Shown: positions 27,705 to 47,927 of the stretch, in pieces
How the letters are laid out: each line of letters starts with the position of its first letter
Position numbering within the stretch: the stretch's first letter is position 1
Virus record (IMG/VR): IMGVR_UViG_3300021963_000021
Coordinates: 124,001-188,000 of that record
Length of the DNA stretch: 64,000 bases
DNA from: a virus
Reading direction: 5' to 3' (one strand)
Program-made: the position numbers and the translations under genes
Notes under the pieces: generated by a model
Database searches by the model: none
What the model was told of the DNA's origin: nothing
Seen by the model: the letters and a program-made list of their open reading frames with translations, nothing else

Positions 27705-29085
27705 ACTTGAATACAAAAAAGAATTAGACACCATTGGTCACGGATTTTGTTCGGCTAAATGGAGTCAAGTTACCATACACTTAGGTACGGGGCATAATCA
27801 CAGTTGTCATCATCCTAGGACACATTTTATTCCTATTGAAGAAATAGTCGAAGATCCAACAGCATTACACAATACAAAATTTAAAAAAGAAATACGTAGG
27901 CAGATGCTCAACGGTGAACGTCCAACGGAATGCGATTACTGTTGGAAAGTCGAAGATGCTGGCGAGCCTCTTAGCGACAGAGTATTAAAAAGTTATGAAC
28001 CGTGGAGCAGAGATTATTTTGACAAAATAATAAAAGCAGGATCGGAAGGTAATGTAGATCCTAGCTACTTAGAAGTTAGTTTTTCAAATGTTTGTAATTT
28101 TAAATGTTCTTATTGCTCTCCTGATGTTAGCAGTCAGTGGATGGAAGAAATTAAACAGCACGGACCTTACCCTACGTCTATACGATACAATAATATTGAT
28201 TGGATACAGAAGCAGGATAAGATGCCAATTCCTGAGCGTGAATACAATCCATATGTAGAAGCATTTTGGAAGTGGTGGCCGGACCTTTATAAAAATTTAC
28301 ATACATTCCGCATTACAGGCGGTGAACCATTATTAACTAAACACACATTTCGTGTATTAGATTATATAATTGAAAATCCTAACAAGAATCTAGAACTTAG
28401 CATTAACAGTAATTTCTGTGTACCTGATGATGTATTTGAAAAGTTTCTTTCGAAATTAGAAATAATACAATCAAAAAAATCAGTGAAGCATTTAGTTGTG
28501 TTTACTAGCTGTGAAGCAGCAGGGCCAAAAGCTGAATATATTAGACACGGATTGAATTATGCCAAATGGTATTCTAATTGTAATTTGTTTTTACAAAGAA
28601 TACCAAATGCTAAACTAGGTATTATGAGCACCTATAATGCGCTGTCAGTTACTAGCTATACTGATTTCTTAAAAGACATGTGGTTGTTAAATTATACGCA
28701 CAGCAAAAAGAAATGGTATCAATCAATCGCTAGCTTAGTGTCGACTGGTGATTTAGGTAAGCATCCATTGATATTAGATATTCCGTATCTTAATAACCCA
28801 CCGCATCAGACTGTGGGAATACTTACGCCCGACTACATACCTCGTATACAAGAATCTATTGATTACATGAACTCTAATAAAGAGTTCTATAAATCAGAAA
28901 CTCAAAAATTAGAAAGACTATTAAAAGTTTTTGAACCAAAAATTCTTGATGACAATCCTGGTAAAGCGCAGCACAGAAAAGATTTTGTTTCTTTTGTTGA
29001 CGAGCACGATAAGAGACGAGGAACGAACTTTTTAAGTACGTTCCCCGAAATGACAGAGTTTTATAACTTTTGTAAAACTTACTGA
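27682..29085 (+). CDS. Radical SAM enzyme with N-terminal cysteine domain
   Basis: 467 aa. The radical SAM cluster motif is C138-x3-C142-x2-C145 (SNVCNFKCSYC), followed by RITGGEPLL, the SAM-binding GGE motif. Before it, residues ~23-90 hold a His/Cys-rich segment (GHNHSCHHPR and ECDYCW; C42, C84, C87) that looks like an extra iron-sulfur ('twitch'/SPASM-like) domain, placed N-terminally rather than C-terminally. Such enzymes often modify peptides. It is the last gene of the glycosyltransferase cassette, overlapping the preceding gene by 23 bases; the start ATG at 27682 is fixed by that coupling. Substrate unknown. Confidence 0.8.
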   Translation: MNKWYNDRLEYKKELDTIGHGFCSAKWSQVTIHLGTGHNHSCHHPRTHFIPIEEIVEDPTALHNTKFKKEIRRQMLNGERPTECDYCWKVEDAGEPLSDRVLKSYEPWSRDYFDKIIKAGSEGNVDPSYLEVSFSNVCNFKCSYCSPDVSSQWMEEIKQHGPYPTSIRYNNIDWIQKQDKMPIPEREYNPYVEAFWKWWPDLYKNLHTFRITGGEPLLTKHTFRVLDYIIENPNKNLELSINSNFCVPDDVFEKFLSKLEIIQSKKSVKHLVVFTSCEAAGPKAEYIRHGLNYAKWYSNCNLFLQRIPNAKLGIMSTYNALSVTSYTDFLKDMWLLNYTHSKKKWYQSIASLVSTGDLGKHPLILDIPYLNNPPHQTVGILTPDYIPRIQESIDYMNSNKEFYKSETQKLERLLKVFEPKILDDNPGKAQHRKDFVSFVDEHDKRRGTNFLSTFPEMTEFYNFCKTY

Positions 29086-29747
29086 CTTACAAAATCGCCG
29101 GTCATTGGAAATACTGCGGCGATGACACAGGCACATTCTTTTGCTATTTGTTGATGTTCTAACTGTGTACCATTAGCTGAACGCAATTCGATAAAGTGAA
29201 TCCAACTACGCAATGTGCCATTCATGTATAACCGGCTTTCTGTTAGACCTTCTGGTAACACAGCACGAGCTTGTTCTTTAGCAATGCCACGCTCTATTGC
29301 TTCGGAGTAAGCTACGCTAGCCTGTTCAATGATCCATTTTTGCTTGGCATCCCACCATGCTTGTAACTCTGTATCATTTGTGATGATGCTGTTCTGACGA
29401 TTCTTGTTGTCTTGAAGTCTGGCTTCTCTTGTAACGAACGCCAAATCTTTAGTTGGGTCAGCATAGCGTTGACTGAACTCTTGGAAACTAAAACTTCTGT
29501 GTCGCAAGATTTGTCTAGCGATATCTCTTGTGGTTGTAATTTCACAACAGGCTGAGACCATTTCGAGTGGGCTCCAGTGTTTGTGTTTGACCAAGTATCG
29601 GATGAGTTTTTCTGATGTTTCGGTGTTAAGTTGGTTGGCTGGATTGCTGACACGGGCGCAATACGCAATGAGTTCTTGCGCATCTGAGATGCCCATATCT
29701 GCAAATTCCTGTGTTGGCTGTGAATAGGAAATAAGTCGTACATTCAT
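29079..29747 (-). CDS. thyX: Flavin-dependent thymidylate synthase ThyX
   Basis: 222 aa, usual length for ThyX. It has the signature R82-H-R-x-x-S-x-x-x-x-S-x-R-Y95 (RHRSFSFQEFSQRY) and the downstream SRLYMNGTLRSWIHFIELR region that binds dUMP. It makes dTMP from dUMP with FAD and methylene-tetrahydrofolate, supplying thymidine for phage DNA. It is the 3'-most gene of the long - strand array; its stop overlaps the stop of the + strand radical SAM gene by 7 bases. Its ATG region overlaps the stop of the next gene upstream. Confidence 0.95.
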   Translation of the reverse strand: MNVRLISYSQPTQEFADMGISDAQELIAYCARVSNPANQLNTETSEKLIRYLVKHKHWSPLEMVSACCEITTTRDIARQILRHRSFSFQEFSQRYADPTKDLAFVTREARLQDNKNRQNSIITNDTELQAWWDAKQKWIIEQASVAYSEAIERGIAKEQARAVLPEGLTESRLYMNGTLRSWIHFIELRSANGTQLEHQQIAKECACVIAAVFPMTGDFVSQ

Positions 29748-33614: not shown

Positions 33615-34045
33615 GAAACCTCAGACTTTCCTTTACTCAACGGAGTGACATTAATGAACCCTGCGTTTACACGCTCGGGCTCTGCTACTCCGTCATCGGC
33701 GAGCATGTTTCTAACAATATCACGGAACCAACGATCGACAATTTCTTCGTCAGCGTCGCCATCGAATCCGTAACCTTCTTGTTTTAATTGTAACACAAAT
33801 AATTCGTTCCAGTCAAGCTCAAAAAAACCGTTGCGTATATTATCCTTGTTAACATGAGTATCTAAAACGGATACCCAAGGTTCACCTTTTCTAGTAGCAC
33901 GTTCTTTTGGAGTCAGTTTAGCGAGTTCTTCTGCTTCTTTGGCTTTAAGTGCTTCTCCTTCGGCAACTTTCTTTTCTTGTTCTAATCTTGCTTTGTCTGC
34001 CTCTAATTTAGCAATACCTGTAATTTTTTTAAACCAATCTTTCAT
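33611..34045 (-). CDS. Conserved phage protein with N-terminal coiled coil
   Basis: 144 aa from the ATG that overlaps the queE stop codon (TAATG). Residues ~10-50 are a charged, Ala/Glu/Lys-rich helix (coiled coil), followed by a domain with NGFFELDWNELFVLQLKQ and an acidic EEIVDRWFRDIVRNML. No known family. The tight coupling to queE is positional only; no role in deazaguanine synthesis is implied by the sequence. Confidence 0.65.
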   Translation of the reverse strand: MKDWFKKITGIAKLEADKARLEQEKKVAEGEALKAKEAEELAKLTPKERATRKGEPWVSVLDTHVNKDNIRNGFFELDWNELFVLQLKQEGYGFDGDADEEIVDRWFRDIVRNMLADDGVAEPERVNAGFINVTPLSKGKSEVS

Positions 34046-34905
34046 TATGTACCCCACTCATTTTTAAATAACGGCACCTGTAAGCGGTCACTATAACGTA
34101 AACCATGTTTCATTGCCATAATAGCTACCGCTTTATTGTTTAATGCGTAAACACTTTCAACACCACCGACTGGCATTAGATAAACGTGTCCTTTAAATCC
34201 AGCGGCACGATATTCGCTTGCGGCTTTAAGCGCATAGTCGCGATCTTCTTCTGTGGCAATAACAAATTTCAAGTATGCTGTACCAACTTCTTCATACTCA
34301 CAAACAACCTCTGGAAGAATTGCTTCTTCCCACTTCTCACCACTACAAGGAAGTTTAGCACTGACACTGAATGTAACTTCTCTAGTGAAGTCTAAGTTAG
34401 GCATCTGCCACTGTAATAGATAGTCTTTAAATTCTGGACTTAGTTTTTGAGTACCATTTGTTTCAAAAGTAATTTCTTTCAATCCAGACATCTTAGGATT
34501 ATCTAGCAAGTCTGGATAAGCACGTTGCCAACCTAGCAATGGCTCGCCACCTGTAATTACGAGATGTTCGTCTAACCATTCATTATGTGGAAGGATTTCC
34601 ATAATTCGATCTGCTATAGCATCGCTTGTGAGCATTGGACTAAGGTCTTTGAATCTTGGATCCCAACTTGCGTAACTGTCACAGCCTGTACTAACAAGTG
34701 GAAGTTCTTCATATTTTGTAAATGGTTTTAAAGTATGTGCTAACGCAATGGTGTCAACTTCGTCACTTAGTTCACCACGTGGCATTCCGAAACCAGCACA
34801 TTTAAAGTTACAACCAAATGTACGTAAGAAAACAGAAGGCACACCCATATAGCGTCCTTCACCTTGTATGCTGTAAAACAGCTCTGCGATTTTGATTTTG
34901 CTCAT
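34045..34905 (-). CDS. queE: 7-carboxy-7-deazaguanine synthase (QueE-like radical SAM)
   Basis: 286 aa from ATG; a GTG at 34920 is an alternative start. Characteristic QueE opening (LFYSIQGEGRYMGVPSVFLR) and SAM motif VITGGEPLL. The iron-sulfur cysteines are unusual: GCNFKC gives the first two (C32 and C36), but the third is in VSTGCDSYASW (C75), where normal QueE proteins have it two residues after the second. A ~36-residue insert thus splits the motif. QueE converts carboxy-tetrahydropterin to CDG, on the way to preQ0. Works with folE and the QueD-like gene in this window. Confidence 0.88.
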   Translation of the reverse strand: MSKIKIAELFYSIQGEGRYMGVPSVFLRTFGCNFKCAGFGMPRGELSDEVDTIALAHTLKPFTKYEELPLVSTGCDSYASWDPRFKDLSPMLTSDAIADRIMEILPHNEWLDEHLVITGGEPLLGWQRAYPDLLDNPKMSGLKEITFETNGTQKLSPEFKDYLLQWQMPNLDFTREVTFSVSAKLPCSGEKWEEAILPEVVCEYEEVGTAYLKFVIATEEDRDYALKAASEYRAAGFKGHVYLMPVGGVESVYALNNKAVAIMAMKHGLRYSDRLQVPLFKNEWGT

Positions 34906-34912
34906 GTTTATA

Positions 34913-35509
34913 TTATACACTCATTTCTTTAATTTTGTCAACTATACTTTTGAAAATAAATTCATTACCTTCTTTGGTATAATGATTAACATCACCACGG
35001 TTACTTGGCCAATACTCTGAAAAATCTAAATGATTCAATTCGTGACCAAAATGACTGCTGGCACTAGTATGGTCTAATGCTAGATATAGTGTTTGAACAT
35101 TTCTATCTATTTCACTGCGCATCAATCTATAGATATCTTCTTGATACTGTTCATCATAATGATGTTTAAACCAATTTAATGCTGTTACTAAACTTTCGTT
35201 TGATTTGTCTTGATTGTTTTCTAAATCATTAAAGATTAGATCACAGTTTTCGTGTAGCCCTTTTCTTTTTATAGGATGAGTGGGCGTGTGTACACGAAAG
35301 GGACTGGTATGACTAACAATCACTAGATTAAATTCTTTTGTGTTATTATTTTCTATTTGTTTTAAGATCTTATATTCACCAACACCTGCCTGCGCTACGT
35401 TTTTAACTGAATATTCTTTAGACAATAGATCTGCCCAACCAGGATACTCGCCGTTCCATTTGGCAGCAAAACTATCTCCGGCTAGCAGTATTTTTATTTT
35501 TTTAGCCAT
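34913..35509 (-). CDS. SGNH/GDSL-family hydrolase-like protein (second copy)
   Basis: 198 aa. Block I G11-D12-S13 near the N-terminus (ILLAGDSFAAKW) and block V D173-x-x-H176 (GDVNHYTKEG) give the Ser and Asp-His of an SGNH catalytic triad, spaced as in the family. It has no signal peptide. SGNH enzymes are esterases, often acting on acylated sugars. It overlaps the upstream SGNH gene by 16 bases, so the two are made together. Substrate unknown. Confidence 0.7.
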   Translation of the reverse strand: MAKKIKILLAGDSFAAKWNGEYPGWADLLSKEYSVKNVAQAGVGEYKILKQIENNNTKEFNLVIVSHTSPFRVHTPTHPIKRKGLHENCDLIFNDLENNQDKSNESLVTALNWFKHHYDEQYQEDIYRLMRSEIDRNVQTLYLALDHTSASSHFGHELNHLDFSEYWPSNRGDVNHYTKEGNEFIFKSIVDKIKEMSV

Positions 35510-36309
35510 GGGATGAAACTTTCAGCTATCATGCGATGATAATCTTCGTTGTAATGTTCGTTGTCTGGAAGAAAGAATTTAGTATGATCGATAAACTTTT
35601 TACGAAAATAAGTTTCAACTGTTTGTTCGGAAATTTTAGTAGATTTTAATTTTGCGTAGTAATCTAATTTTTCCGGAAACTTAACACGATCAGTCATGTT
35701 AAACAGATACAGTTTACAGCCGTGTTCGTGGCACATAGTATCCATAACAAGTATATCTTTAAAAAAGTCTCTCTGTTCAAGATGTGTATTCAACTCAAAG
35801 AATAGTTTAACATCCATGTACGAATCTTTTCTAAGATCTGGTTTTATAAGACCGCTGGCATAATTAAAATTAATGTCTGCCATTCTTCCAAAATCTTCGT
35901 AAGTGGGTTTATTTAGAAGTTGGAATCTGTCATCTTTAAAAATCGTATCTTGGTATATGTCTACTAATCCGTGCTTGTTTTTATAAAATTCAGTAAAGTA
36001 ATCTGAACCAATAACATCAGCAGATAGTGTTTCATTGAATGCTAAGATAAAACGATTCCAGCTGGCTAGCAGTACAAACACTTCGTCGGTATCTGGATGT
36101 TTATCTAACATTGTTCTAAGCCAGTCTGTATATACTTTGTTTGCTGCTCCGGGAATAGCATACACTGACACTTGTTTGTTATTTTCTTTTGCGTAGAATT
36201 CTGCGTAGTTGTTGTCATTCCATAGGGAGTAACTACCAGGTCCCATCTTGCCTGGTTCTGTTATATAACCGCAGGTGTGACTATCGCCGAGAAATATTGC
36301 TCTACTCAT
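35494..36309 (-). CDS. SGNH/GDSL-family hydrolase-like protein (first copy)
   Basis: 271 aa. GDSH at residues 8-11 (IFLGDSHTCGY) with nucleophile S10, a block III-like SWN, and D248-x-x-H251 (LPDNEHYNED). It is longer than the neighbouring copy and diverged from it, with an added Phe/Asp/Lys-rich middle. No secretion signal, so a cytoplasmic esterase or deacylase acting on a nucleotide-sugar or modified biomolecule is more likely than a lysis role (inference). Confidence 0.7.
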   Translation of the reverse strand: MSRAIFLGDSHTCGYITEPGKMGPGSYSLWNDNNYAEFYAKENNKQVSVYAIPGAANKVYTDWLRTMLDKHPDTDEVFVLLASWNRFILAFNETLSADVIGSDYFTEFYKNKHGLVDIYQDTIFKDDRFQLLNKPTYEDFGRMADINFNYASGLIKPDLRKDSYMDVKLFFELNTHLEQRDFFKDILVMDTMCHEHGCKLYLFNMTDRVKFPEKLDYYAKLKSTKISEQTVETYFRKKFIDHTKFFLPDNEHYNEDYHRMIAESFIPWLKK

Positions 36310-36503
36310 TGAATACCTTCGCTTAACAGCAATCTACACATTAGCGCATCTTGTTCTGTTTTAAAATGAAACTTCATACATTCTGTGCTGACTTCTGTTG
36401 TATACCGTGTACCTGGTAAACCAAAGTGTTCCATAACGCTAGCACAGGTTTCATTCCACCAAATGTCTTTTTGATTTTGCCAGGGCACGTTTATTGTAAT
36501 CAT
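36306..36503 (-). CDS. Small phage protein, unknown
   Basis: 65 aa with many Trp/Cys/His residues (WQNQKDIWWNETC, TECMKFHF, LMCRLLL) but no clear metal-binding pattern. ATGA-type overlaps at both ends. Not recognised. Confidence 0.55.
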   Translation of the reverse strand: MITINVPWQNQKDIWWNETCASVMEHFGLPGTRYTTEVSTECMKFHFKTEQDALMCRLLLSEGIQ

Positions 36504-36703
36504 TCTGGTACTTGTCTAAATCTAGTAATGAAGCTTTCTAAATAACAGCTATATTCTTTGTTGTTATCTGGATCTTCAGGATCAATAACTACATTTTCTT
36601 TTCTGTAATGTACCCAGGTGTGATCATGTATATCAATTACGTGTATCACACGAAACTTTTGACTAGTTGAACCTTCCCACAATGTACCTTCTTTAACGAT
36701 CAT
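36500..36703 (-). CDS. Small phage protein, unknown
   Basis: 67 aa, beta-rich and His/Tyr-containing (KFRVIHVIDIHDHTWVHYRK), with an acidic central loop. Overlaps both neighbours by 4 bases. Resembles small SH3-like barrels in composition only; no family call. Confidence 0.55.
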   Translation of the reverse strand: MIVKEGTLWEGSTSQKFRVIHVIDIHDHTWVHYRKENVVIDPEDPDNNKEYSCYLESFITRFRQVPE

Positions 36704-37092
36704 TTTTCGCCCTTTCGATAGTTACCTTTTCCTGGGATAGTGTTTCGAACACCGCCCACAGGATCTTCTACATCACCTTTGCGTCTTGGAATGAGATGTA
36801 CATGCGGATACATTACAGTCTGACCAGCAGCTTCACCCCAATTAAGACCAATATTAAATCCGTCCCATTCGCCAATGGCTACCATTTCTTTTCCGTGCTT
36901 GAAAGCATCGGCAAAGCAATCTTCAATAACTCCGTCGGCAGAGTATTGAGGAACGAAAAGAAGATGCCCGGGTGTACAAGGATATTTGTCCTCGAAAACC
37001 ACAACATGGAAGTCCTCCCGGATCTTTTCTGTCCATGGCGCTACGCCATTGGCCGCGGCATCTTCTAAAGTGTAATATTGTATCTTACTCAT
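36700..37092 (-). CDS. HIT-family nucleotide hydrolase
   Basis: 130 aa. The histidine triad H97-V-H99-L-I-P (YPHVHLIPRRKGD) is intact and preceded by the family's GHLLFVP and FNIGLNWGEAAGQTV segments. HIT proteins hydrolyse or transfer nucleotidyl groups on Ap4A-like molecules, adenylated substrates or GDP-sugars. It is in a run of nucleotide-related genes with a phosphoribosyltransferase two genes away. Substrate unknown. Confidence 0.85.
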   Translation of the reverse strand: MSKIQYYTLEDAAANGVAPWTEKIREDFHVVVFEDKYPCTPGHLLFVPQYSADGVIEDCFADAFKHGKEMVAIGEWDGFNIGLNWGEAAGQTVMYPHVHLIPRRKGDVEDPVGGVRNTIPGKGNYRKGEK

Positions 37093-37316
37093 CTTGAAAA
37101 GTCCTTGCGCTCTTGCGGTAGCGCATCTTCTTTAACAACAAACTCTCGTCCTAGCATACTGCCGACGTAGACTTTGGTGTTTTCTTTATATACCATTCGT
37201 ATCTTAACAGTTTGTAACGCTACTTCTAGGAAAGCCTTTGGCTTGTGTCCTAGTATATGAGCATCGAGGTCTTTGCCGTTATCAGTACAACGTATTTTTA
37301 TTTTCGAATCAATCAT
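37089..37316 (-). CDS. Small phage protein, unknown
   Basis: 75 aa, basic, mostly beta by pattern (KIKIRCTDNGKDLDAHILG, VKIRMVYKENTKVYVGSMLG). Coupled by 4-base overlaps to the HIT gene and the phosphoribosyltransferase gene. No family recognised. Confidence 0.55.
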   Translation of the reverse strand: MIDSKIKIRCTDNGKDLDAHILGHKPKAFLEVALQTVKIRMVYKENTKVYVGSMLGREFVVKEDALPQERKDFSR

Positions 37317-37810
37317 TTAGTCCACCAATCTTCGTATGGAAAATCAATCCATATATTACGTTCTGCTTTATTAATTTCTTCCCCGGTGAAATCCATTTTA
37401 ACTTTACAGCTCGATGCTAGGTTATCAAACATCACAGCAAATTTCACATTGTTATTCCACACTTCGTTCCAGCGTGTGTGATCGGGCAAACAATTCGCTT
37501 GCCAGTCGTCCATGATCCAATTAAGTGTAGCACCTGTATCGTTGATATCGTCGGCAATTAAGATATTCTTTTCTTCGAACGCATCTTCTGCCATCCAGAG
37601 ATTGCTTTCGCAATCGTCACCATCTCTTAACTGTACTTTAATTGTTTGGCAAGGAATATTAAAATAGTGGCTAATCATTACAGCTGGCAGCAGCCCGCCT
37701 CGGGTTATTCCAACCACATAGTCGGGTTTCCAATCAGATAAACTAATATCTCTACAGATCTTATTGATCAACGCTTGGTACTGTAACCAGCTTACGTTAT
37801 ATTTTTCCAC
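37313..37810 (-). CDS. Purine phosphoribosyltransferase-like protein
   Basis: 165 aa, type I PRTase size. PRPP-binding motif near residues 82-99 (NILIADDINDTGATLNWI) and an upstream GITRGGLLPAVMISHYF resembling xanthine-guanine phosphoribosyltransferases. It would transfer ribose-5-phosphate from PRPP to a base; guanine or xanthine salvage is the nearest resemblance. Inference: in a phage that makes deazaguanines it could also act on a modified base, but nothing in the sequence proves this. Confidence 0.8.
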   Translation of the reverse strand: MEKYNVSWLQYQALINKICRDISLSDWKPDYVVGITRGGLLPAVMISHYFNIPCQTIKVQLRDGDDCESNLWMAEDAFEEKNILIADDINDTGATLNWIMDDWQANCLPDHTRWNEVWNNNVKFAVMFDNLASSCKVKMDFTGEEINKAERNIWIDFPYEDWWTK

Positions 37811-38270
37811 TCTCTAATTTCCTTACGGCAATATATTCCTCATGTTGAATCCATTTGTTATTGACTAGGAAACCCCAATCACGTTTATGTGGACCGGGCA
37901 TAAACAATGTCCAGGCTGTTACACCTTCTTTTAATTCAATGCGATGATAGCTTGTTGGCTTACAAATACGAAAATGCCCAGGGCCTCTCCAGTGGCGTAT
38001 CTCGCCAATCTTTTGGCCAATACTATTAAACTGTGGAACCCATTCATAGTACCCGCCTTTCAAAATTAGTGTAGCATATGGCCAAGGATGATCATGTACA
38101 TCGTCGGGATCGCCTTTTAAAAACTTGTGTAGAAACACATTAAAAGGAAACCAAGAACGATCTTTTAGAAAAAGGTAATACCTTTCTAAGTAAGGCTCAT
38201 TACTTTGCCTATCCATAATAATACGCTTGCGGCCAATGCTATCAAGCCAATTTAGAAAACGGTAAAACAT
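37797..38270 (-). CDS. Cupin-fold protein
   Basis: 157 aa. A metal-binding cupin pattern is visible: DDVHDHPWPYATLILKGGYYEW (H-x-H with a following Gly) and later CKPTSYHRIEL (third His). It could be a metal-dependent dioxygenase, isomerase or binding protein. The first ~30 residues are basic and helical. The gene overlaps the phosphoribosyltransferase gene by 14 bases. Reaction unknown. Confidence 0.65.
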   Translation of the reverse strand: MFYRFLNWLDSIGRKRIIMDRQSNEPYLERYYLFLKDRSWFPFNVFLHKFLKGDPDDVHDHPWPYATLILKGGYYEWVPQFNSIGQKIGEIRHWRGPGHFRICKPTSYHRIELKEGVTAWTLFMPGPHKRDWGFLVNNKWIQHEEYIAVRKLESGKI

Positions 38271-38277
38271 TATATCC

Positions 38278-38511
38278 TCATTTTTTAGGTTTTGTTGCTT
38301 CTGGTGGTGTGTCAGCGGTTAATGGTCTTCCTTGATCATCATAATGAATATATGTGTCAATGTATCGTACCATACGAACCGGAACCCAATATGCCCTTAG
38401 TAATTTGTTAATACCAATAGCTGTAACGACAATTAATAGGACAGTTAGACAGCCAACAAATGTACCGCCAAACATTGACAGACCTGTAAGTATTGCTGAG
38501 CATTCATTCAT
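38278..38511 (-). CDS. Small membrane protein
   Basis: 77 aa. One or two membrane segments at residues ~5-35 (a hydrophobic stretch with LSMFGGTFVGCLTVLLIVV), then a soluble, Pro/Lys-rich tail. No lysis or transport motif. Separated from its neighbours by 7 and 13 bases. Function unknown. Confidence 0.6.
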   Translation of the reverse strand: MNECSAILTGLSMFGGTFVGCLTVLLIVVTAIGINKLLRAYWVPVRMVRYIDTYIHYDDQGRPLTADTPPEATKPKK

Positions 38512-38524
38512 ATATTTCCTTTAG

Positions 38525-39349
38525 TTAGCGTGGAGCAAATTCTTGTTGAAGTTTAATATTATCCATGAACTCTTTTTTAGTTCCTGGATCATCTTTAAAC
38601 GCACCTTTTAATACTGTAGTCTGCGTTAAAGAACTGTGTGCCATAATACCGCGATTCTCACAGCAACCATGTGTTGCCTGTACATAGACTGCTACATTTT
38701 CTGAGTCAGTGGCTTTGCTAATCTCGCGGGCAATGTCGTTACAAAGTTCCTCCTGGAGAGTACCACGTCTTGCACACCACTGTGCGATGCGTGTGTACTT
38801 TGAGAGTCCAATGAGTTTTTGTGCGGCAATAATACCAATATAAGCAACGCCAGTAACGGGTTGATGATGATGGCTACACATACTGCGAAGCTCACTGCGA
38901 ACCACAAGCATACCTTCGTAGCGGTCCTCCGAGTCATTTGGGAAAGCGGTTGCGTCTGGTGCTGGGTCATACCTACCTGCCATTATTTCATTAAAGTACA
39001 TCTTAGCAAGCCTGCGGGCTGTGCCTTGACTGTTAGGATCATTTTCACGGTCAATTAGTAGCGTATCTAACACACGTTCAAACGCTTCTGTTGCTTCGTC
39101 GATAAGTTTTGCTTTATCTTCTTCAGTGACATAGTCACTGATATTGTCACCGGCCCAGAAGCGTTTTTTATCACGCTTCAATTTCGCACGAATAGCATCA
39201 CCTAAATAGCCTTCTGAATATCCTTTGTCGGACATCATTTCACCTGCTTTAACGTACACTTGCTTTTCTAATGGTACGTATTTTTCTTCAACGAACTTTT
39301 TGTCTAACGGTTCGTTGAGAACAGGATCTGGTGTAAATTCTTTTGTCAA
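38525..39349 (-). CDS. folE: GTP cyclohydrolase I (FolE)
   Basis: 274 aa, with a ~50-residue N-terminal extension relative to E. coli FolE. Zinc and active-site residues are present: C158-S-H160-H161 (SMCSHHHQPVTG, matching CEHH) and H227-x-C229 (ATHGCCENRGI), plus LIGLSKYTRIAQW. Converts GTP to dihydroneopterin triphosphate, the first step to folate and to 7-deazaguanines; its company with QueD-like, QueE and DpdA-like genes points to the latter. The start is an unusual TTG with CGGAGAAC upstream; no in-frame ATG lies nearby upstream. Confidence 0.92.
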   Translation of the reverse strand: MTKEFTPDPVLNEPLDKKFVEEKYVPLEKQVYVKAGEMMSDKGYSEGYLGDAIRAKLKRDKKRFWAGDNISDYVTEEDKAKLIDEATEAFERVLDTLLIDRENDPNSQGTARRLAKMYFNEIMAGRYDPAPDATAFPNDSEDRYEGMLVVRSELRSMCSHHHQPVTGVAYIGIIAAQKLIGLSKYTRIAQWCARRGTLQEELCNDIAREISKATDSENVAVYVQATHGCCENRGIMAHSSLTQTTVLKGAFKDDPGTKKEFMDNIKLQQEFAPR

Positions 39350-39389
39350 TTTATTGTTCTCCGAGTTAATGTCGTGGATGACATATATG

Positions 39390-40454
39390 TTATTTTAAAT
39401 TCTTTAGAAGATTTTCGCAACTGAAGAAGTTGTTTTTTAATTCTTCTACCTGTTTATTTAGGCTAGGTAAGAATTTTTCATAATTTTCCATGTACTGGAT
39501 TATCTTATGACACACTTCTTTTCTATGAACTTCATAGGATTCGAATGATTCTGTCCATTCGCTAGGATATTTGAATGGATCAAATGCCATTTCACTGTAG
39601 CTGAGTCTATCAGGAACCATAGGAATAGCATCTACAACTGCCCCTTCGTACCAACTGATACCTAGGGTTTCTTGTAGATTAGCACTGAATACTAGTTTAG
39701 CTTCACCTAGCATATTATGATATTCGTTCTTGGTCAACGGATATTCTTGGCATACTTTAAATTCGTATTGTGGAAGATGCTTTTTTAAATCAAGAAATAT
39801 ATCTAGCTGCTTTTCTGGAGCAATACGATGTGGGAATAGAATTAAGTTTTTCTTTTCCATTCCTTTATACATCATAAGAGCATTAGTCATATACTCCATT
39901 GGCCAGCCTGTGCGTATAACCTTACCGTCAAAGTCTGCGCCTGAAATAACTTTAGTTCCAAATAGATTTTCAAAGAACATCTTAATATGGAAGTTTGTGG
40001 CAAAGTAGTTGTGGTCAAACGCTTCGTAAAAACTTTTCTCAGCGTGTCTAACCCAAGGCTTGTTGCCAACAAGACGTCCTAGGAAGTCTTGAGGATCATA
40101 ACTGCCAGCATGCCACAGGCCATGAGTGACTACAGGAATATCCAGCAATTCACTCATGTACTTTAAGTTTATGATACCAGGGTGCCAAGCATCAGTAAAA
40201 ATAAAATGATCCCCAGGCTTAATTGCTCCGGCGCAAAATAAACGACCAATCTGCTCAACCTGACTAGACTTGTATATATTAGTCCCGCCAAAATTAAGAA
40301 AGGCCCCAGGAGTAGTGGCACTAGGAATATCCGTAGGGCCAGAGATAACTTGAACATTGTGTCCTGCCTTTCGTAGAAGTTCAGGTACATGAGTCTTCCA
40401 TTGACCCGTGTACCTGGTTTCAACCGCTTCTAGATCAACGAGAAAAACGGTCAT
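39390..40454 (-). CDS. Glycosyltransferase (GT-B/GT4-like)
   Basis: 354 aa from the ATG at 40454, which fits a 20-base overlap with the upstream gene; an earlier in-frame start would give 368 aa. The C-terminal half has the GT4-type layout: NLILFPHRIAPEKQLDIFLDL, then the nucleotide-sugar-binding region SANLQETLGISWYEGAVVDAIPMVP. The N-terminal half (GQWKTHVPELLRKAGHNVQV, FTDAWHPGIINLKYM) is the acceptor domain. It lies between folE and the QueD-like gene, so glycosylation of a modified DNA base is possible (inference). Acceptor unknown. Confidence 0.75.
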   Translation of the reverse strand: MTVFLVDLEAVETRYTGQWKTHVPELLRKAGHNVQVISGPTDIPSATTPGAFLNFGGTNIYKSSQVEQIGRLFCAGAIKPGDHFIFTDAWHPGIINLKYMSELLDIPVVTHGLWHAGSYDPQDFLGRLVGNKPWVRHAEKSFYEAFDHNYFATNFHIKMFFENLFGTKVISGADFDGKVIRTGWPMEYMTNALMMYKGMEKKNLILFPHRIAPEKQLDIFLDLKKHLPQYEFKVCQEYPLTKNEYHNMLGEAKLVFSANLQETLGISWYEGAVVDAIPMVPDRLSYSEMAFDPFKYPSEWTESFESYEVHRKEVCHKIIQYMENYEKFLPSLNKQVEELKNNFFSCENLLKNLK

Positions 40455-40704
40455 TGTTATATCTCGGTTTATTACCTTGGTAAGGTTTGCGTTCACCGTT
40501 GTTTCGATCTACCCAAGGACGCTTTGGGCGTTTACTATACAGATAGTTCTGATAGTTTTTTGAATCCTTGCGGTACAAATCCGCAGGGTTGAAATCGCAG
40601 AGTTCAATTCTGCAGTAGTCCAAATACGCTTCAAGATCTTCAAAGATCTTGACAACGTCAGGACGGTTAGTGAAGTAGGAATAGTCCTTGTAGTTCTTAG
40701 ACAT
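40435..40704 (-). CDS. Conserved phage protein with basic Asn/Arg-rich tail
   Basis: 89 aa. An N-terminal helical part with Tyr/Asp (YSYFTNRPDVVKIFEDLEAY) is followed by a strongly basic tail rich in Arg, Asn, Lys and Pro, of the sort that binds nucleic acid. GAGG lies upstream of the ATG. Function unknown. Confidence 0.6.
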   Translation of the reverse strand: MSKNYKDYSYFTNRPDVVKIFEDLEAYLDYCRIELCDFNPADLYRKDSKNYQNYLYSKRPKRPWVDRNNGERKPYQGNKPRYNNDRFSR

Positions 40705-40713
40705 TTTAGCCTC

Positions 40714-41109
40714 TTAGTATTTGATAAACGAACCATTTTCTCCGTCTTCGGAGATCTCAATCCAAATCTCGCGATCTGGATACTTTAGCGAAATAATGTT
40801 GAACAAATCGTCCGACATCATTTCACAACTCTTGTAGTCAAGGCTTAGAATGGAACCTTGACCATTATACAGCGACTCGAGCCATCGTTTGAACTGGATG
40901 AACTCGATGTCCCTGTCATTATGGAGCACACTGATCCACACCCTGAAATGAAAGATGTGGCGATGAGGGTGACCCAAAAACGATACATCATATTCATCTC
41001 CTGTAGCTAAGTTGGGATCTGTAAGAGCCGCAGGATATTTATGAATACCTTCCTTTTGAAAGGTAACCCAGATCATTTTGTTAGGTCTAATATCTTGTTT
41101 AATGATCAT
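40714..41109 (-). CDS. QueD-like protein (6-pyruvoyl-tetrahydropterin synthase family)
   Basis: 131 aa, right for the family. Pattern matches: an N-terminal strand with H23 (FQKEGIHKYPAAL), H49-x-H51 followed by a strand (GHPHRHIFHFRVWISV, matching the HGH zinc motif), IEFIQFKRWLESLY (the D/E-F..LK helix), and a C-terminal strand with a Glu (IWIEISEDGENG). The cysteine that usually precedes the HGH motif is missing, so activity needs testing. QueD makes 6-carboxy-tetrahydropterin, the QueE substrate. Coupled to the next gene by an ATGA overlap. Confidence 0.65.
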   Translation of the reverse strand: MIIKQDIRPNKMIWVTFQKEGIHKYPAALTDPNLATGDEYDVSFLGHPHRHIFHFRVWISVLHNDRDIEFIQFKRWLESLYNGQGSILSLDYKSCEMMSDDLFNIISLKYPDREIWIEISEDGENGSFIKY

Positions 41110-41408
41110 GCCTTTAGTCCTTCCATAGTAATGATCTTACCGATCTCGTCACCTAGATCTTTATCGTCTGTGATAATATAAAGACCATTATTGCTGGTGT
41201 CACGCTTCATGTCGTATTTGCGTGTTTCGATGATAGTTCCGCCGTTTGCTCGGAATACCTTAAGGGTAAATCCGTTTGCGTCAATGGACCTTTCACCGGT
41301 AGAAAGCACTGCGGCTGTTCCCATTTTTATTCCTTCATCTTGGTATTTGTGGCTGTTATCCCACATATCGCGGGTCTTTTTATACAGCCATTTATCAAAC
41401 CATTTCAT
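41106..41408 (-). CDS. Conserved phage protein, unknown
   Basis: 100 aa, mixed charge, beta-rich centre (GFTLKVFRANGGTIIETRKYD and GLYIITDD). It is linked by ATGA overlaps to the QueD-like gene and to the 180-aa gene, so it belongs to the same unit. No motif recognised. Confidence 0.6.
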   Translation of the reverse strand: MKWFDKWLYKKTRDMWDNSHKYQDEGIKMGTAAVLSTGERSIDANGFTLKVFRANGGTIIETRKYDMKRDTSNNGLYIITDDKDLGDEIGKIITMEGLKA

Positions 41409-41947
41409 TTAATAATCTCATCGTTAGTGTAAGCACTCCACGGTGTGAACTTACTGCGGTCTTTTAAATCGTGTAGGCTATGACACCACACGCCGGGATT
41501 GGTTGCTTTAAAATCTTTGTCATCGATTTTAAGCATTGTATTGTAATTCCATAGTTTGATATATGGGATAGGTATACGGATTTGCGGAATAAACATCTCG
41601 TAGTCGTTTAAGCAGCCGTCATTGAACTCTTCTACTTGATTTAGTGGAATATCTAGACTACACCAATACCCTTGATCGAGAAAATGTGTAATCATATCTT
41701 CCCATGCCTTGTGCTCATCATATCCTGTAGGATTGAAACTATGATTAGCACCAAAGAAGATATGTTTAATATGTTTGCTAGTGTCGAGCAAACAATTCAT
41801 ATCACCAAGAATGTGGTCAATGACTTGTTCATTTTGAACACCAGTTACAAACAATGTACGCATACCAAACGTGGGAGTATTCTCGACTTCGTTACCGATG
41901 AAAAAATTCACATCTTCTAATGTGCCAGTGGAATAATCACGCTTCAT
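41405..41947 (-). CDS. Conserved phage protein in the deazaguanine region, unknown
   Basis: 180 aa. Repeated blocks of aromatic and acidic residues (TPTFGMRTLFVTGVQ, HIFFGANHSFNP, LKDRSKFTPWSAYTND), soluble, no membrane segments. It does not show the ATP-binding SGGxDS or zinc cysteines of QueC, so it is not a disguised QueC. Its position between the QueD-like and DpdA-like genes suggests a role in the same pathway, but this is only context. Confidence 0.65.
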   Translation of the reverse strand: MKRDYSTGTLEDVNFFIGNEVENTPTFGMRTLFVTGVQNEQVIDHILGDMNCLLDTSKHIKHIFFGANHSFNPTGYDEHKAWEDMITHFLDQGYWCSLDIPLNQVEEFNDGCLNDYEMFIPQIRIPIPYIKLWNYNTMLKIDDKDFKATNPGVWCHSLHDLKDRSKFTPWSAYTNDEIIK

Positions 41948-42114
41948 TGTTTAAACCAGTTTCTAATTGACTTCATTAAATTATAGTATCTTGCTTTGTA
42001 GTTGTCAACCAGGATATCATCAATCATTGGGCGACGATGTGGGCAGCGACCTTGTCTCCAGTCGCAACCTGCGTGAATTTCTTCACCGCAAGTTTCGCAT
42101 TTTCTAGCTACCAT
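41944..42114 (-). CDS. Small cysteine-rich (zinc-ribbon-like) protein
   Basis: 56 aa, below usual gene-finding length. Cysteines and histidine are spaced as in small zinc-binding proteins: C6-x2-C9-x7-C17-x6-C24-x-H26 (KCETCGEEIHAGC, GRCPHRR). The ATG overlaps the end of the upstream gene and its TGA overlaps the ATG of the 180-aa gene (ATGA), exactly as in the surrounding genes. It fills what would otherwise be a 160-base hole in a gapless run. Role unknown; nucleic-acid binding is possible. Confidence 0.7.
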   Translation of the reverse strand: MVARKCETCGEEIHAGCDWRQGRCPHRRPMIDDILVDNYKARYYNLMKSIRNWFKQ

Positions 42115-42338
42115 GTGTTTACGTCAGTGATATCAACGGTGGTGTCGATGTCCTTGTCGGCATCGTTGAATAGGTTGAACTTAACAACAACGGCAGGACC
42201 AATTCCGCTGGTGTGACTTTCTTCGAGAGTGAACCACTCTACTTCTTTGAAGTGAGCAGATATTTTAGCAAGTTTTTCAATTTGTCCTTTGTTAAGAGCA
42301 AACTGTGTTGGTACGTAGTCTTTATCTTTCTTCGTCAT
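42108..42338 (-). CDS. Small phage protein, unknown
   Basis: 76 aa. Helical N-terminus (FALNKGQIEKLAKISAHFKEV), then an acidic C-terminus ending DKDIDTTVDITDVNTW. Overlaps the upstream gene by 17 bases and the small cysteine-rich gene by 7. Not identified. Confidence 0.55.
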   Translation of the reverse strand: MTKKDKDYVPTQFALNKGQIEKLAKISAHFKEVEWFTLEESHTSGIGPAVVVKFNLFNDADKDIDTTVDITDVNTW

Positions 42339-42531
42339 AATCTATGCTTTCGTGATCATGTTCCCACTGTAGTCTAGTAAGTCTAGCAAGTTCGTCCTTA
42401 TAAAGCAACTTCTTTTTCTTTAATTCGGACAAATTCTCATCGGTAAATTTACCATTTCTTTCTAACGCAGAAATCTGTTCGTCAATTAATCTGTGTGTTT
42501 CGGTTAACGTTTTGATTCGAGATTCGTACAT
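42322..42531 (-). CDS. DUF465/YdcH-like small helical protein
   Basis: 69 aa. Matches the pattern of the DUF465 family: an N-terminal helix with H13-R-L-I-D-x-x-I (ETHRLIDEQISALE) and a second helix LKKKKLLYKDELARL. Two helices form a hairpin in that family, whose function is not known. Confidence 0.65.
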   Translation of the reverse strand: MYESRIKTLTETHRLIDEQISALERNGKFTDENLSELKKKKLLYKDELARLTRLQWEHDHESIDYDEER

Positions 42532-42546
42532 TTTGGCCTCCGATAA

Positions 42547-44079
42547 TCAATTGGCTGTTTGCTCTAGAAATTCGTGTTCTAATTCTTCGAGCATATCTTC
42601 GTCTAACACAGGCATTGCTGACACTTGTGACACAGACTTGTCTAATACTACTTCATCTGATTCAAAGTGTTTGTTAAACGTGTTGTTGGCGTTTCCACCA
42701 CGTAGACGCATACCCATCATTTTGTTCAGCATAGGTCTAGCATCTTCAATCATCTGCATTGGAGTTTCGCTGGTAAACAATTCTTCAACGAAGTTATTGA
42801 AGTACAGGATGTTACGAGGTACCCATTCAGAGTATTCATCGCTCTTATCCATGTCTTTGAGATTCTTCCATTGACGCCAGTTAGGACTTACTTTGGCAGT
42901 TTCAATATCCATTAAATTGTTAGCACGTTGTACAGCAACGATGTGACAATATGTATTATGTGCCATCATTAGCGCATAACCAAAGCTGTCCCAAGAAGTT
43001 TTTCCTTCTTTGCCGATTTTGTTTAACATTCCCGGCTTGTACCAGCAGATGTCTCCGATGTTAAGGCGCCTGCCAATTTCTGATTCAAACGGGAAGGGGA
43101 TGTTAAAAGCCTGGCTAATTGCTTTGTTGTCTGGGGCCTTGTCCATGATGACTGACCAGCGTTTGTTGGTGTGCTGGGCATTTGTGTAGACAAGCCCGTG
43201 GGCTGTAGCAATGAAGGGTGATGCGCAATCAAAAGATATGGTAAAGTTTTCATTCACGTGCTTCCTTACTTGGCGTTGGATTAAAGTTAAGTAACAAGAC
43301 CAATCTAACTGTGCTGTACCCAAGAAGTGCATCCAGTTACGATCGTCTAACAGTTTCTCATCACGCAGGATAATGAGACGTTTTAGTGCGACTTCCATAT
43401 CACACATATTCTTACCGCCCATTGCCCACCCTTCTGTAGGCAAGTGTTTAACTGCTTCGTACCAAGCCTGTGCTGTTTCCCAGTCACTGCCTTGTAGAAC
43501 GTTAAGGAATTTAGTTTGACCTAAGCGATTACGTATAAAGTAATCATTGTTGTGAAGTGTTTTATCTAAACAGTCTTGAAAACTCTTTAATCCTGTCTTT
43601 GGACTATGGATATGATCGCTAGCCCATGTCGGGACGTCTAATAACATTGACCAATCAGCAGTTAATTCTAGCCAGTTAAGGATGCTGTCACGAGTTTTAT
43701 TGGCAGCAGCACCTTCAAAGTTCATCCAATCAAACTTAAGAACACCTTTACCGATCTGATAGCCGCCGGAGTCGCCTACAATAAGTGTGTTGTTACGATC
43801 TCTACTTTGAATCATAGCATCTTGAATCATTGTCTTTTCAAGATCTAATTGTGCGTGGCCTGCTGAGTAAAGACCATATTTGTAAGTAAAGTATCCTTGC
43901 TCAGGATTAAGGAAGTTCATTCCTTCAATGCCGCGATCAAACCCTTGCGGAATACGATCGTTAGGAACAAACTCGCTGAATCTTTGTTTGCTTACATATG
44001 TTGAATAAAAACAACTAATCGCAGGCAAATAGACTGCGTAGTCTTTCTGTAGGGGTGTTAAATTAACTGGTGGTCTCAT
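42547..44079 (-). CDS. dpdA: DpdA-like tRNA/DNA-guanine transglycosylase
   Basis: 510 aa, TIM-barrel TGT family. Motifs in order: D103 in VGDSGGYQIG (base-pocket Asp), WSMLLDVP, FLNVLQGSD (residues 191-199), WAMGGK (~218-223), MHFLGTAQL, and the nucleophile D284 in FTISFDCASPF; H374 in MMAHNTYCH matches the TGT zinc His. The usual C-x-C-x2-C before it is missing (only C345). It is longer than tRNA-TGTs and fits the phage DpdA group that exchanges guanine for a deazaguanine in DNA. It overlaps the gene next to the sliding clamp. The DNA role is inference from family and context. Confidence 0.8.
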   Translation of the reverse strand: MRPPVNLTPLQKDYAVYLPAISCFYSTYVSKQRFSEFVPNDRIPQGFDRGIEGMNFLNPEQGYFTYKYGLYSAGHAQLDLEKTMIQDAMIQSRDRNNTLIVGDSGGYQIGKGVLKFDWMNFEGAAANKTRDSILNWLELTADWSMLLDVPTWASDHIHSPKTGLKSFQDCLDKTLHNNDYFIRNRLGQTKFLNVLQGSDWETAQAWYEAVKHLPTEGWAMGGKNMCDMEVALKRLIILRDEKLLDDRNWMHFLGTAQLDWSCYLTLIQRQVRKHVNENFTISFDCASPFIATAHGLVYTNAQHTNKRWSVIMDKAPDNKAISQAFNIPFPFESEIGRRLNIGDICWYKPGMLNKIGKEGKTSWDSFGYALMMAHNTYCHIVAVQRANNLMDIETAKVSPNWRQWKNLKDMDKSDEYSEWVPRNILYFNNFVEELFTSETPMQMIEDARPMLNKMMGMRLRGGNANNTFNKHFESDEVVLDKSVSQVSAMPVLDEDMLEELEHEFLEQTAN

Positions 44080-45224: not shown

Positions 45225-47897
45225 TCACTCAAAATCAAACAATTTACTGAATGTGTTATCACTGCGTGTTGAACTAATGTCCCATTCCAACACTCCGATT
45301 AGGTTTTCTAACTTTTCATCGATAACTGTGGTTTCCATTTCGGCATCATCGAACGGTAGTTCTTTGAACCATTGCGGCAAACGTAGTTCGTCTACCGGAT
45401 ACGCTACTGAAGTATAGCCCATTGGGTTATCTCTGACTTTACAAACAATCACTTTAGCACCGTCAGTGATGCCCATTGAGTACTTGTCATCCATCATGCG
45501 TTTGAGAGTATTCCAATTAAGACTTGCTCTAACATGACCAGGCATGTTAGTCTTACCAGCCTTCTTCTCTTTTGCGGCGTATTCTGTAATGTTGTTGGCA
45601 CGTTTGGGAGAGCCTTTCTCCCAACCTGGGCGAGTTTTAAATTCTGTACGGAAATTAGTGATGTGTTCTAGTACTTCTTCTTTTGAAGCACCGGTTAGCA
45701 CTTTTTCTAATACATCACTTAAGAAGTTTTGAATGACTACTGGAGTATCACTGCGTTTAAGGTCTAGACCCATGGCCTTGATCTTACCAGGTTTACCATC
45801 TACATCACTGCGCTTGCCTTCTTTGTCATAGTAAAGCACAGCATAACGCTTCTTAGTAATGAACAGACCTTTTGACGCAACAATTTCACGACCTGCTTTA
45901 ATAACTTCGCCACGAGTCTTTGGACAATGGAACTGTTCTGTCATCATTTTAGGAAAACTCTGATTGACTTCGTCGGCTATTTGATCATACAACTGTACTA
46001 CAGTTTCTTTACTCCAAGGCAAGTGCCCAGATTCAATTTCTTTTCTCAGTACAGGGTATGCTGAAAAGTAGCAGGAGTCAGTATCACCATAGATAACAGC
46101 CTTGCCTTTGTAATCATATTCGCCACAAATGATTTCATTTATCTTTGAGGCCATGTGTTTGACAATAGTCCTGCCTGTGAGTGTAGTGGATTGACCGATT
46201 CTATTATCAAAGAAGCGGCAACCAGGATTAAGAATAGCGCCATAAAGACTATTGAGGTTAATTTTCTTAACAAGCTGTCGTTTGTCCCAGTATTCTTCTT
46301 CAATTTTATTTCCACTTGCTATACATTCCTTTAGTTTAGCTTGCATTTCTTTACGTTCAGCATACCAACGCTTTAGCAGTCCTGGAATAATACCATCTTT
46401 TTCATAGGTAAAGATAGTTCCGTTAGAACTGATCATCCAGGGCTGACCAGAATCAAATATGAGATCATTGATCTGTGCGCCAGTTAATGTATCACTGCCG
46501 CCATTTTCCCAGTCAATGACGATTTCTTTAGCAATGTTTCGTTCCATTACATACTCATACTCCAAGCTACCGAACATTCCTTCCCATGCTGCCGCAAAAG
46601 ATTTACCATGCCGCACCATTTGATCGTCAATATAGTTCTTTGTGTAGTCTGGACGAAGTTGACCGACAATGGTTTCCGGTCCCATGTTTAGCGCACGAAT
46701 CGCAGACGGATACAGTGAGTTCAAGTCAACTGATCCGATCCATTCGTGAATGCCTTTCTTGGGATAAGCAACATAAGCACCTGCTGCCTGTGTGGATTCT
46801 GTGTCGTCACGTCTCTTACGATTCGGTACAACAAAGCCTCTACGATGTGCTTCGTTGATAATTGCCTGCTCAGTAACAGCAACCGCACCCATCGCAGTCT
46901 GTAGTAACACAGTATTTTCGTGGGCAATCTTGTTAGCTAGATCCAAAAACTGTAGTTTCTTATCTAACTTGTCTAGCAGTGCTGTGTCTTGTCTGTTGTA
47001 TTCGATGAATTTTTTAAAGTCGTTGTTGTAAAGTTGATCCAGTGTACCTTCGTAGACTGTTTTGTTTTCACCGATCTCCATTTCACCAATAGCATCTAGT
47101 CGATATGTGTGTCGTTCTTCATATGTGTACTTTCTATAAAGTTCGAGACTATCAAGATGTACACGCCCTACTAGATCATATGTGACAGCCTGGCGACCAA
47201 ACTTTTCAAACTCACGTTTTTTAGGAAACTGATTCCATAAACAGAATCGACGTGTATCTTCTTTTGACAACGCTTTTGTTACACGGTTAACGGTGTATGG
47301 AATATCGAAACCTTCTGAATTCCAACCACTTAACACATCAGCATCTTCAATGAGTGTTAAGAAGTTGTCAAGAAGATCTGCTTCGTTGTCAAAAAGATAT
47401 GTGTTTGGAAATTCTGCTACTGCCTTTTCTGCTTCTGCCATTGACATAGTCTTTGGAGGTACAGCAAGACAGATTAATGTGTTAAGCCATTGTAAGTGAA
47501 CAGCAATCGCAGTGATCGGCATAAACGCATCATCTGGTGAAGCATACCCACGTTCGGGATCAAAGTCTACTTCAATGTCAAAGAATGCTACGTTTAGTTT
47601 TGGGGAATCTTGATTAAGATAGTTTTCTTCAAGACAACGGAATATAGGATTAATATCAGATTCATAAAGTTTCTGACTTCCGTGTATTTTTTGTTCTTTG
47701 TGGAATTCTTTTAGATTTTTACAAGTAACACGACTCAGCGGAATGCCGTGAGTACTAACATACTTGCCTTTAGGATCTTGATAATAAAAAAGATATTTGG
47801 CAGCATATTCTTTAAACTGTCTGCGACCATCTTTATCTCTTTCGACAACAGAGATAAGATCACTGTCTCTGTCGTAGTAAGCATCTACGTAACTCAT
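45225..47897 (-). CDS. 43: DNA polymerase, family B (gp43-like)
   Basis: 890 aa from the ATG with AAGGAG upstream (T4 gp43 is 898). Exonuclease motifs: D107-I-E109 (AFFDIEVDFD), SGWNSEGFDIP, and YNRQDTALLD. Polymerase motifs: DLNSLYPSAIRAL (motif A), KKINLNSLYGAI (motif B), IYGDTDSCYFS (motif C), and a late KKRYAVLYYDKEG. So both proofreading and synthesis sites are intact. Replicates the phage genome with the clamp encoded next to it. Confidence 0.97.
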   Translation of the reverse strand: MSYVDAYYDRDSDLISVVERDKDGRRQFKEYAAKYLFYYQDPKGKYVSTHGIPLSRVTCKNLKEFHKEQKIHGSQKLYESDINPIFRCLEENYLNQDSPKLNVAFFDIEVDFDPERGYASPDDAFMPITAIAVHLQWLNTLICLAVPPKTMSMAEAEKAVAEFPNTYLFDNEADLLDNFLTLIEDADVLSGWNSEGFDIPYTVNRVTKALSKEDTRRFCLWNQFPKKREFEKFGRQAVTYDLVGRVHLDSLELYRKYTYEERHTYRLDAIGEMEIGENKTVYEGTLDQLYNNDFKKFIEYNRQDTALLDKLDKKLQFLDLANKIAHENTVLLQTAMGAVAVTEQAIINEAHRRGFVVPNRKRRDDTESTQAAGAYVAYPKKGIHEWIGSVDLNSLYPSAIRALNMGPETIVGQLRPDYTKNYIDDQMVRHGKSFAAAWEGMFGSLEYEYVMERNIAKEIVIDWENGGSDTLTGAQINDLIFDSGQPWMISSNGTIFTYEKDGIIPGLLKRWYAERKEMQAKLKECIASGNKIEEEYWDKRQLVKKINLNSLYGAILNPGCRFFDNRIGQSTTLTGRTIVKHMASKINEIICGEYDYKGKAVIYGDTDSCYFSAYPVLRKEIESGHLPWSKETVVQLYDQIADEVNQSFPKMMTEQFHCPKTRGEVIKAGREIVASKGLFITKKRYAVLYYDKEGKRSDVDGKPGKIKAMGLDLKRSDTPVVIQNFLSDVLEKVLTGASKEEVLEHITNFRTEFKTRPGWEKGSPKRANNITEYAAKEKKAGKTNMPGHVRASLNWNTLKRMMDDKYSMGITDGAKVIVCKVRDNPMGYTSVAYPVDELRLPQWFKELPFDDAEMETTVIDEKLENLIGVLEWDISSTRSDNTFSKLFDFE

Positions 47898-47903
47898 TTT
47901 TTT

Positions 47904-47927
47904 CTCCTTGCGATTTTTGGCTCGCAA
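47904..47927 (-). promoter_or_regulatory. RNA hairpin at the gp43 ribosome-binding site (putative autoregulatory operator)
   Basis: In the mRNA sense, a 6-bp stem UUGCGA/UCGCAA (47927-47922 and 47913-47908) closes an 8-nt loop GCCAAAAA. The 3' arm runs straight into the Shine-Dalgarno GGAG (47907-47904), 6 nt before the AUG. T4 gp43 represses its own translation by binding a stem with an 8-nt loop in the same position; the loop sequence here differs. Confidence 0.6.

Follow-up and report, generated by a model that had tools for sequence, protein, structure and literature searches.

The question raised by this locus is whether a virus modifies the guanines of its own DNA and, if so, which base it makes. 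The window analyzed here is a stretch of 64,000 nucleotides, bases 124001-188000 of the 363,943-bp virus record IMGVR_UViG_3300021963_000021; positions below are those of the window unless given as genome positions. Genes for GTP cyclohydrolase I (FolE), 7-carboxy-7-deazaguanine (CDG) synthase (QueE) and a protein of 510 amino acids (aa) resembling tRNA-guanine transglycosylase (TGT) and DpdA were all located on the minus strand inside 10 kb, as stated in a preliminary description of this DNA, and were part of a long minus-strand run. Phages are known to protect their DNA from restriction by modifying it with 7-deazaguanines, and the preliminary description had proposed such a system here. We estimate at roughly 55% the probability of the full reading, a DNA hypermodification in which the DpdA-like enzyme would swap guanine for a CDG-derived 7-deazaguanine and a glycosyltransferase (GT) of the GT4 type would then glycosylate it; of these two steps, the exchange has the firmer support.

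The 510-aa protein (42547..44079, minus strand) had no meaningful match in Pfam, PHROGs or NCBIfam, nor in a sequence search of the PDB. Its AlphaFold (AF2) model (pTM 0.67, mean pLDDT 61) was used for a fold search of the PDB, in which the sole match below 1e-3 was 7ui4, 'DNA preQ0 insertase DpdA' (E=5e-5). Among predicted viral structures, the model matched DpdA2 of phage nt-1 (R9TGF0) at 8e-6, the tRNA guanine transglycosylase of Achromobacter phage Motura at 1e-9, and one phage queuine tRNA-ribosyltransferase. Comparison by hhalign of the family with a DpdA2 profile, built from VH7D, nt-1, D527, pf16, X1, ACP17, Moby and BUCT-ZZ01, gave 91% with E=1e-6, and the motifs DSGG, D..P, QG and the second Asp motif were all in register. 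No profile match to the 9g-type DpdA was detectable. The protein was also aligned with 20 relatives from viral contigs. The two catalytic Asp residues named in the preliminary description, D103 (DSGGYQ) and D284 (ISFDCASP), did not vary in any aligned relative, including those with only about 26% identity; in the 13 aligned sequences used for scoring the motifs (the Asp pair in DSGG[FY]Q and S[FY]D, and the Asp and Q-G of the substrate pocket), D103, D148, G197 and D284 were found in all and Q196 in 12.

As the enzyme superfamily includes tRNA-TGT, the transglycosylase might instead modify tRNA in a queuosine-like manner. However, PF01702 had no match anywhere in the genome, while the same search found Tgt in 14/14 control genomes, and inspection of the 510-aa protein revealed no CxCxxC zinc motif; the best fold match was the DNA enzyme DpdA. 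The position of the gene also pointed to DNA. The minus-strand run contained an exonuclease-like gene and a family-B DNA polymerase gene (45225-47927), the latter separated from dpdA by a 244-aa gene without a Pfam match, at whose place the Pseudomonas jumbo phage PA5oct has a 'structural protein'. Proximity of dpdA to the DNA polymerase gene was thus common to the present phage and PA5oct, as it is in phages 9g and CAjan. Action on tRNA is therefore very improbable. Because of the DpdA fold match, the DpdA2 profile, the Asp motifs and the lack of PF01702, we class the 510-aa protein with the DpdA-like enzymes, as a divergent member, and not with the tRNA-TGTs. Judging from sequence, we treat it as representing a putative DpdA subfamily shared with PA5oct, Vibrio phage 2.275.O and Phosso, as set against DpdA2 and the 9g type only. 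This subfamily, which Pfam, PHROGs and NCBIfam fail to recognize and which is annotated 'hypothetical' in the isolates compared, had 550 matching stretches in IMG/VR. In the search for related loci, the DpdA-type proteins of PA5oct and 2.275.O retrieved no matches as queries, and that of Phosso retrieved 2 loci.

The genes for synthesis of the deazaguanine were then considered. FolE (38525..39349, minus strand; PF01227, E=6e-40; PHROG GTP cyclohydrolase, 3e-46) and QueE (34045..34920, minus strand; phrog_2076 'QueE-like', 5e-51; TIGR03365, 3e-17) were confirmed as the preliminary description had called them, and the QueE shared 50% identity with that of cyanophage BUCT-ZZ01. A working QueD within the run was not found. 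The 'QueD-like' gene of the preliminary description was most likely the open reading frame for a 131-aa protein (40714-41109), as this frame was missing from its list of unknown genes. The only candidates in the run were this protein, lacking both the QueD Cys and the Asp-His pair, and a 157-aa cupin-like protein, rejected as QueD because it belongs to phrog_4786. The true QueD was encoded outside the window (genome 214526-215089; PF01242, E=6.5e-13), so that FolE, QueD and QueE of the canonical preQ0 pathway were all present in the record. The proposed DNA-modification system was well supported by the DpdA fold and motifs, by FolE, QueD and QueE, by the lack of a tRNA-TGT signature and by relatives among deazaguanine phages, with the correction that QueD is not in the run. 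Phage QueD proteins were found to be of two types, with LHGH or with LHGY, the latter having two Zn ligands replaced; LHGY also occurred in the QueC-bearing phage pf16.

QueC, which the preliminary description had found missing from the window, was not recovered in the rest of the genome either, as PF06508 matched nothing in the entire 364-kb sequence; likewise, no canonical QueF gene was found in the record. As FolE, QueD and QueE were present without a canonical QueC or QueF, the pathway product would be CDG, a base bearing a carboxylate. The preliminary description had allowed for completion of the base by a queC elsewhere, by the host, or for use of CDG itself. A canonical queC elsewhere in the record can be discarded, and the choice was narrowed toward a CDG-derived base.

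The GT4-like gene noted among the neighbors encoded a 368-aa protein (39390..40496, minus strand). Its AF2 model (pTM 0.76) was assigned by Foldseek to the GT-B fold with E-values down to 1e-8, in agreement with a GT4 glycosyltransferase. The structural matches were BshA, PglA, PimA and glycogen synthase, of which BshA and glycogen synthase were the nearest, and a sequence search of the PDB with the family gave no meaningful match. Enzymes of the thymidylate-synthase family (PF00303) were absent from the present record, ACP17, X1 and BUCT-ZZ01, so that a hydroxymethyl-pyrimidine as acceptor is not supported; PA5oct and Phosso have one such enzyme. Judging only from the company that the gene keeps, we infer that the acceptor is a deazaguanine in DNA. 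Homology of the GT to QTMAN/GTDC1 was considered and rejected, as the motif was seen by eye only, no such Pfam match was obtained and the best structures were BshA and glycogen synthase; the resemblance was kept as an analogy. Separately, a ThyX gene (PF02511, E=6e-44) was located at 29079-29747 on the minus strand.

The 131-aa protein (40714..41109, minus strand) belongs to phrog_17812, a family of unassigned function, and is QueD/PTPS-like, with H..HxH of the Zn type and a SCE..SEDGE core. The H23/H49/H51 triad of the PTPS/QueD Zn type was invariant in 12 aligned sequences, and C95-E96 and E121 were also conserved. The match to QueD was a weak local one at the profile level (E=1e-4). The catalytic Cys of QueD (before HGH/HGY) and its Asp-His pair were absent from the aligned family, and the PDB returned chance matches only. 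The protein may modify or activate CDG. The idea that it complements the zinc-less QueD variant (LHGY for LHGH) was rejected, as pf16 has the variant without phrog_17812, and Bakedbeans and Ahp1 carry phrog_17812 with an HGH QueD. Genes with TGT-like motifs, seen by eye, were located near phrog_17812 in Ahp1 (L133:10417-11289), D479 (L135:8686-9543) and MA9V-3 (L136:10782-11576); hhalign gave no support for these 290-, 285- and 264-aa genes as another DpdA type.

Homologues of the 510-aa protein marked 83 loci in viral contigs, and the arrangement of these genes was compared among them. The recurring order was dpdA-g180-g131-g89-GT-FolE-cupin-PRT-HIT-QueE-g148-exo, in which g180, g131 and g89 encode the proteins of 180, 131 and 89 aa, PRT a phosphoribosyltransferase and HIT a HIT-domain protein. 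Where a contig extended 5.5 kb or more downstream, g180, g131 and GT were always present (35/35). In the 26 contigs with at least 8.5 kb downstream, g180, g131, GT and cupin were found in all, FolE, PRT and HIT in 25, QueE in 19 and QueC in none. Retention of the run of dpdA, g180, g131, GT and cupin by 26/26 long contigs, of which 25 also had FolE and 19 QueE, shows that the gene cluster is not due to chance.

A collection of 50,697 phage records was searched for homologues of the module. phrog_17812 was detected in 21 records and the ACP17-type GT in 20, and 16 records had both, namely the PA5oct/Paride/MIJ3 group, ACP17, X1, the cyanophage BUCT-ZZ01 and Phosso. DpdA, FolE and QueE completed the module in these phages. 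The 510-aa protein had a homologue in PA5oct, at 43% identity, whose gene was directly followed by GT, and the dpdA homologue, GT, phrog_17812, PRT, QueE and exonuclease of that phage were in the same order as in the window. The GTs of ACP17, X1 and BUCT-ZZ01 matched the window GT family with E=3e-64, 2.5e-27 and 8e-16, respectively, and in these three phages a DpdA2-type gene had both phrog_17812 (E<1e-30) and GT no more than about 2 kb away. In Phosso, GT and phrog_17812 adjoined each other beside the genes for the clamp, FolE and QueE, and dpdA was located at a different site. GT and phrog_17812 thus travel with two types of DpdA; since two DpdA subfamilies carry the module, the tie is to chemistry and not to one lineage.

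Canonical QueC over the cut-off was found in none of PA5oct, Phosso, BUCT-ZZ01 and ACP17, and X1 had only a sub-threshold match. QueC was present in the dpdA phages 2.275.O, VH7D, pf16, 9g and Moby, and these five were in neither the GT nor the phrog_17812 match list. The genes beside dpdA were QueF and QueC in VH7D, QueF, QueC and GATase in pf16, and an Amidoligase_2-like gene, QueF and QueC in 2.275.O. Fisher's exact test gave p=0.002 for GT versus QueC and p=0.001 for phrog_17812 versus QueC, on about ten phage lineages picked by similarity and not as a random sample. The Amidoligase_2-like gene of 2.275.O (L020:16726-17838), directly after dpdA, might allow amino-acid ligation onto preQ1 in DNA.

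These distributions bear on an ordinary dPreQ0 or dADG modification, in which the phage boosts CDG, the host QueC or a distant PP-loop protein makes preQ0 or ADG for insertion by DpdA, and the GT acts elsewhere. There are precedents for it, as the DpdA of 9g inserts host-made preQ0 in E. coli and Hutinet et al. placed the queC-less phage Bipper in the preQ0/ADG group while allowing for CDG (PMC6884629). Our own QueC profile gave weak scores to two PP-loop proteins, one TilS-like (genome 349923-350555) and one distant (genome 252894-253742). The latter remained below the Pfam QueC level, and its gene was surrounded by radical-SAM genes, which form a run at genome ~237-264 kb. It was present in two close relatives, was not found in PA5oct, ACP17, BUCT-ZZ01, X1 or Phosso, and had no match in the phage collection. 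This absence from isolates sharing the module argues against the dPreQ0/dADG route, as do the five other phage groups that combine GT and phrog_17812 with dpdA, all lacking canonical QueC over the cut-off, and the absence of GT and phrog_17812 from the five QueC-bearing dpdA phages. We regard that route as rather unlikely. Neither this record nor the complete, unrelated phages that share the module contained a canonical queC; in its place were GT4 and phrog_17812. PreQ0 is therefore less likely than a CDG-derived base that is probably glycosylated.

Several points weigh against a glycosylated, CDG-derived base. The distant PP-loop protein has SGGADS together with a QueC-like zinc motif, SCEG..CGRCFWC, and is the main loose end for a reading without QueC; the host queC could also finish preQ0. 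Sequence profiles from the 510-aa protein did not reach PF01702, its model was of low confidence in the N-terminal part (90 residues poor) and the C-terminal part, and TM-scores to 7ui4 were low, though the alignment spanned most of the chain. Phage GT4s act on other substrates too. The association counts rest on the about ten similarity-chosen lineages, and five phrog_17812 lineages had no GT match, among which D479 has a QueC match.

The presence of phrog_17812 alongside FolE in queC-less phages, both with and without GT, suggested another possibility, that phrog_17812 is a CDG decarboxylase ('DpdL'-type activity) and the base is 7-deazaguanine (dDG), with the GT acting on another substrate or forming a C-glycoside. 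Cui et al. in 2023 reportedly found dDG and dCDG in phage DNA and described 'DpdL' with a predicted CDG decarboxylase activity. The conserved His, Cys and Glu of phrog_17812 would fit an enzyme. Nevertheless, dDG has no C7 heteroatom for an ordinary glycosyltransferase, and yet GT accompanies phrog_17812 in six groups. We regard this reading as unlikely.

The preferred route, ending in a glycosylated CDG-derived base, would proceed as follows. FolE, QueD (encoded elsewhere in the genome) and QueE would make CDG from GTP, and the divergent DpdA would remove guanine from the DNA of the phage and put CDG in its place, or else a CDG derivative in whose formation the T-fold-like 131-aa protein takes part. 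The GT4 enzyme would add a sugar to the inserted base via the C7 carboxylate or what that becomes. For the phosphoribosyltransferase, salvage of the guanine set free by DpdA is a possible role, and the modified guanine probably lets the phage DNA escape host restriction. More tentatively, at somewhat less than even odds, this would be a widespread queC-independent phage branch ending in glycosylated CDG or a close derivative, with several DpdA subfamilies, a dedicated GT4 and phrog_17812 as a new deazaguanine-handling T-fold protein.

The system resembles the phage DpdA/DpdA2 systems of 9g, CAjan, nt-1 and VH7D (PMC6884629) in FolE, QueD, QueE, a DpdA-fold transglycosylase with two catalytic Asp residues, and the location of dpdA near replication genes. 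It differs in a DpdA beyond the reach of Pfam TGT and PHROGs, in the lack of canonical QueC/QueF, and in the additional GT4, phrog_17812 and g180. The phage DNA deazaguanines named by Hutinet et al. in 2019, preQ0, ADG, preQ1 and G+, are all made via QueC (PMC6884629). A deazaguanine synthesis and incorporation system in PA5oct was stated by Iyer et al. in 2021, whose main text ties neither a glycosyltransferase nor a small T-fold-like protein to the deazaguanine (PMC7824862). No link of a GT to a deazaguanine system was found in the literature searched, nor in the papers on PA5oct, MIJ3 and Paride. Thus, the deazaguanine system of the relative PA5oct was known already, while the recurring module with GT4 and phrog_17812 and without canonical QueC is new. 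In animal tRNA, queuosine mannosyl- and galactosyltransferases make glyco-queuosine. They offer an analogy only, a GT acting on a 7-deazaguanine nucleoside, as their sugar is placed on the cyclopentenediol of Q in tRNA and no such Pfam family was reported for the window GT. T4-type glucosylation of hmC similarly places a sugar on a phage DNA base after replication as an anti-restriction measure; it uses a modified dNTP route and another base, whereas transglycosylation is proposed here and the record held no thymidylate-synthase-family hydroxymethylase candidate. Prediction of a DNA modification from gene content has outside support from a Vibrio phage for which dPreQ1 had been predicted in this way: mass spectrometry revealed modification of 15% of its dG, with a mass of 295 Da (PMC12028318). 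If the proposal is true, a queC-less branch with its own GT adds a sugar-decorated guanine to phage DNA chemistry, the orphan families phrog_17812 and the 180-aa protein gain a function, and genes in the cultured phages PA5oct, Paride and ACP17 are explained.

The remaining genes of the run were conserved to various extents. The 180-aa protein (41405..41947, minus strand), a conserved part of the module with unassigned function, was restricted within the phage collection to ACP17 and the PA5oct group, which carry the same module. The 89-aa protein (40435..40704, minus strand), also of unassigned function, was conserved in position and detected by tblastn in 54/83 loci. The cupin-like protein (37797..38270, minus strand) belongs to the phrog_4786 family 'cysteine dioxygenase'. 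The phosphoribosyltransferase (37313..37810, minus strand; PF00156, 6e-14) was xanthine/guanine PRT-like; its phage homologues, from the PA5oct group, BUCT-ZZ01, the Cellulophaga phiST group, the Flavobacterium immuto group and one unannotated record, were mostly in phages known, or found here, to carry deazaguanine genes. The HIT-domain protein (36700..37092, minus strand; PF01230, 1e-9) was an accessory gene of the run. Between the HIT gene and QueE, two adjoining SGNH/GDSL-like hydrolase candidates (271 and 198 aa, weak Pfam) occupied 34913-36309 on the minus strand, and the pair was conserved in part of the relatives. Far from the run, a carbamoyltransferase was encoded at genome 7470-8426 on the minus strand (PF02543, E=5e-32), and a second was recognized by eye at genome 56995-58821.

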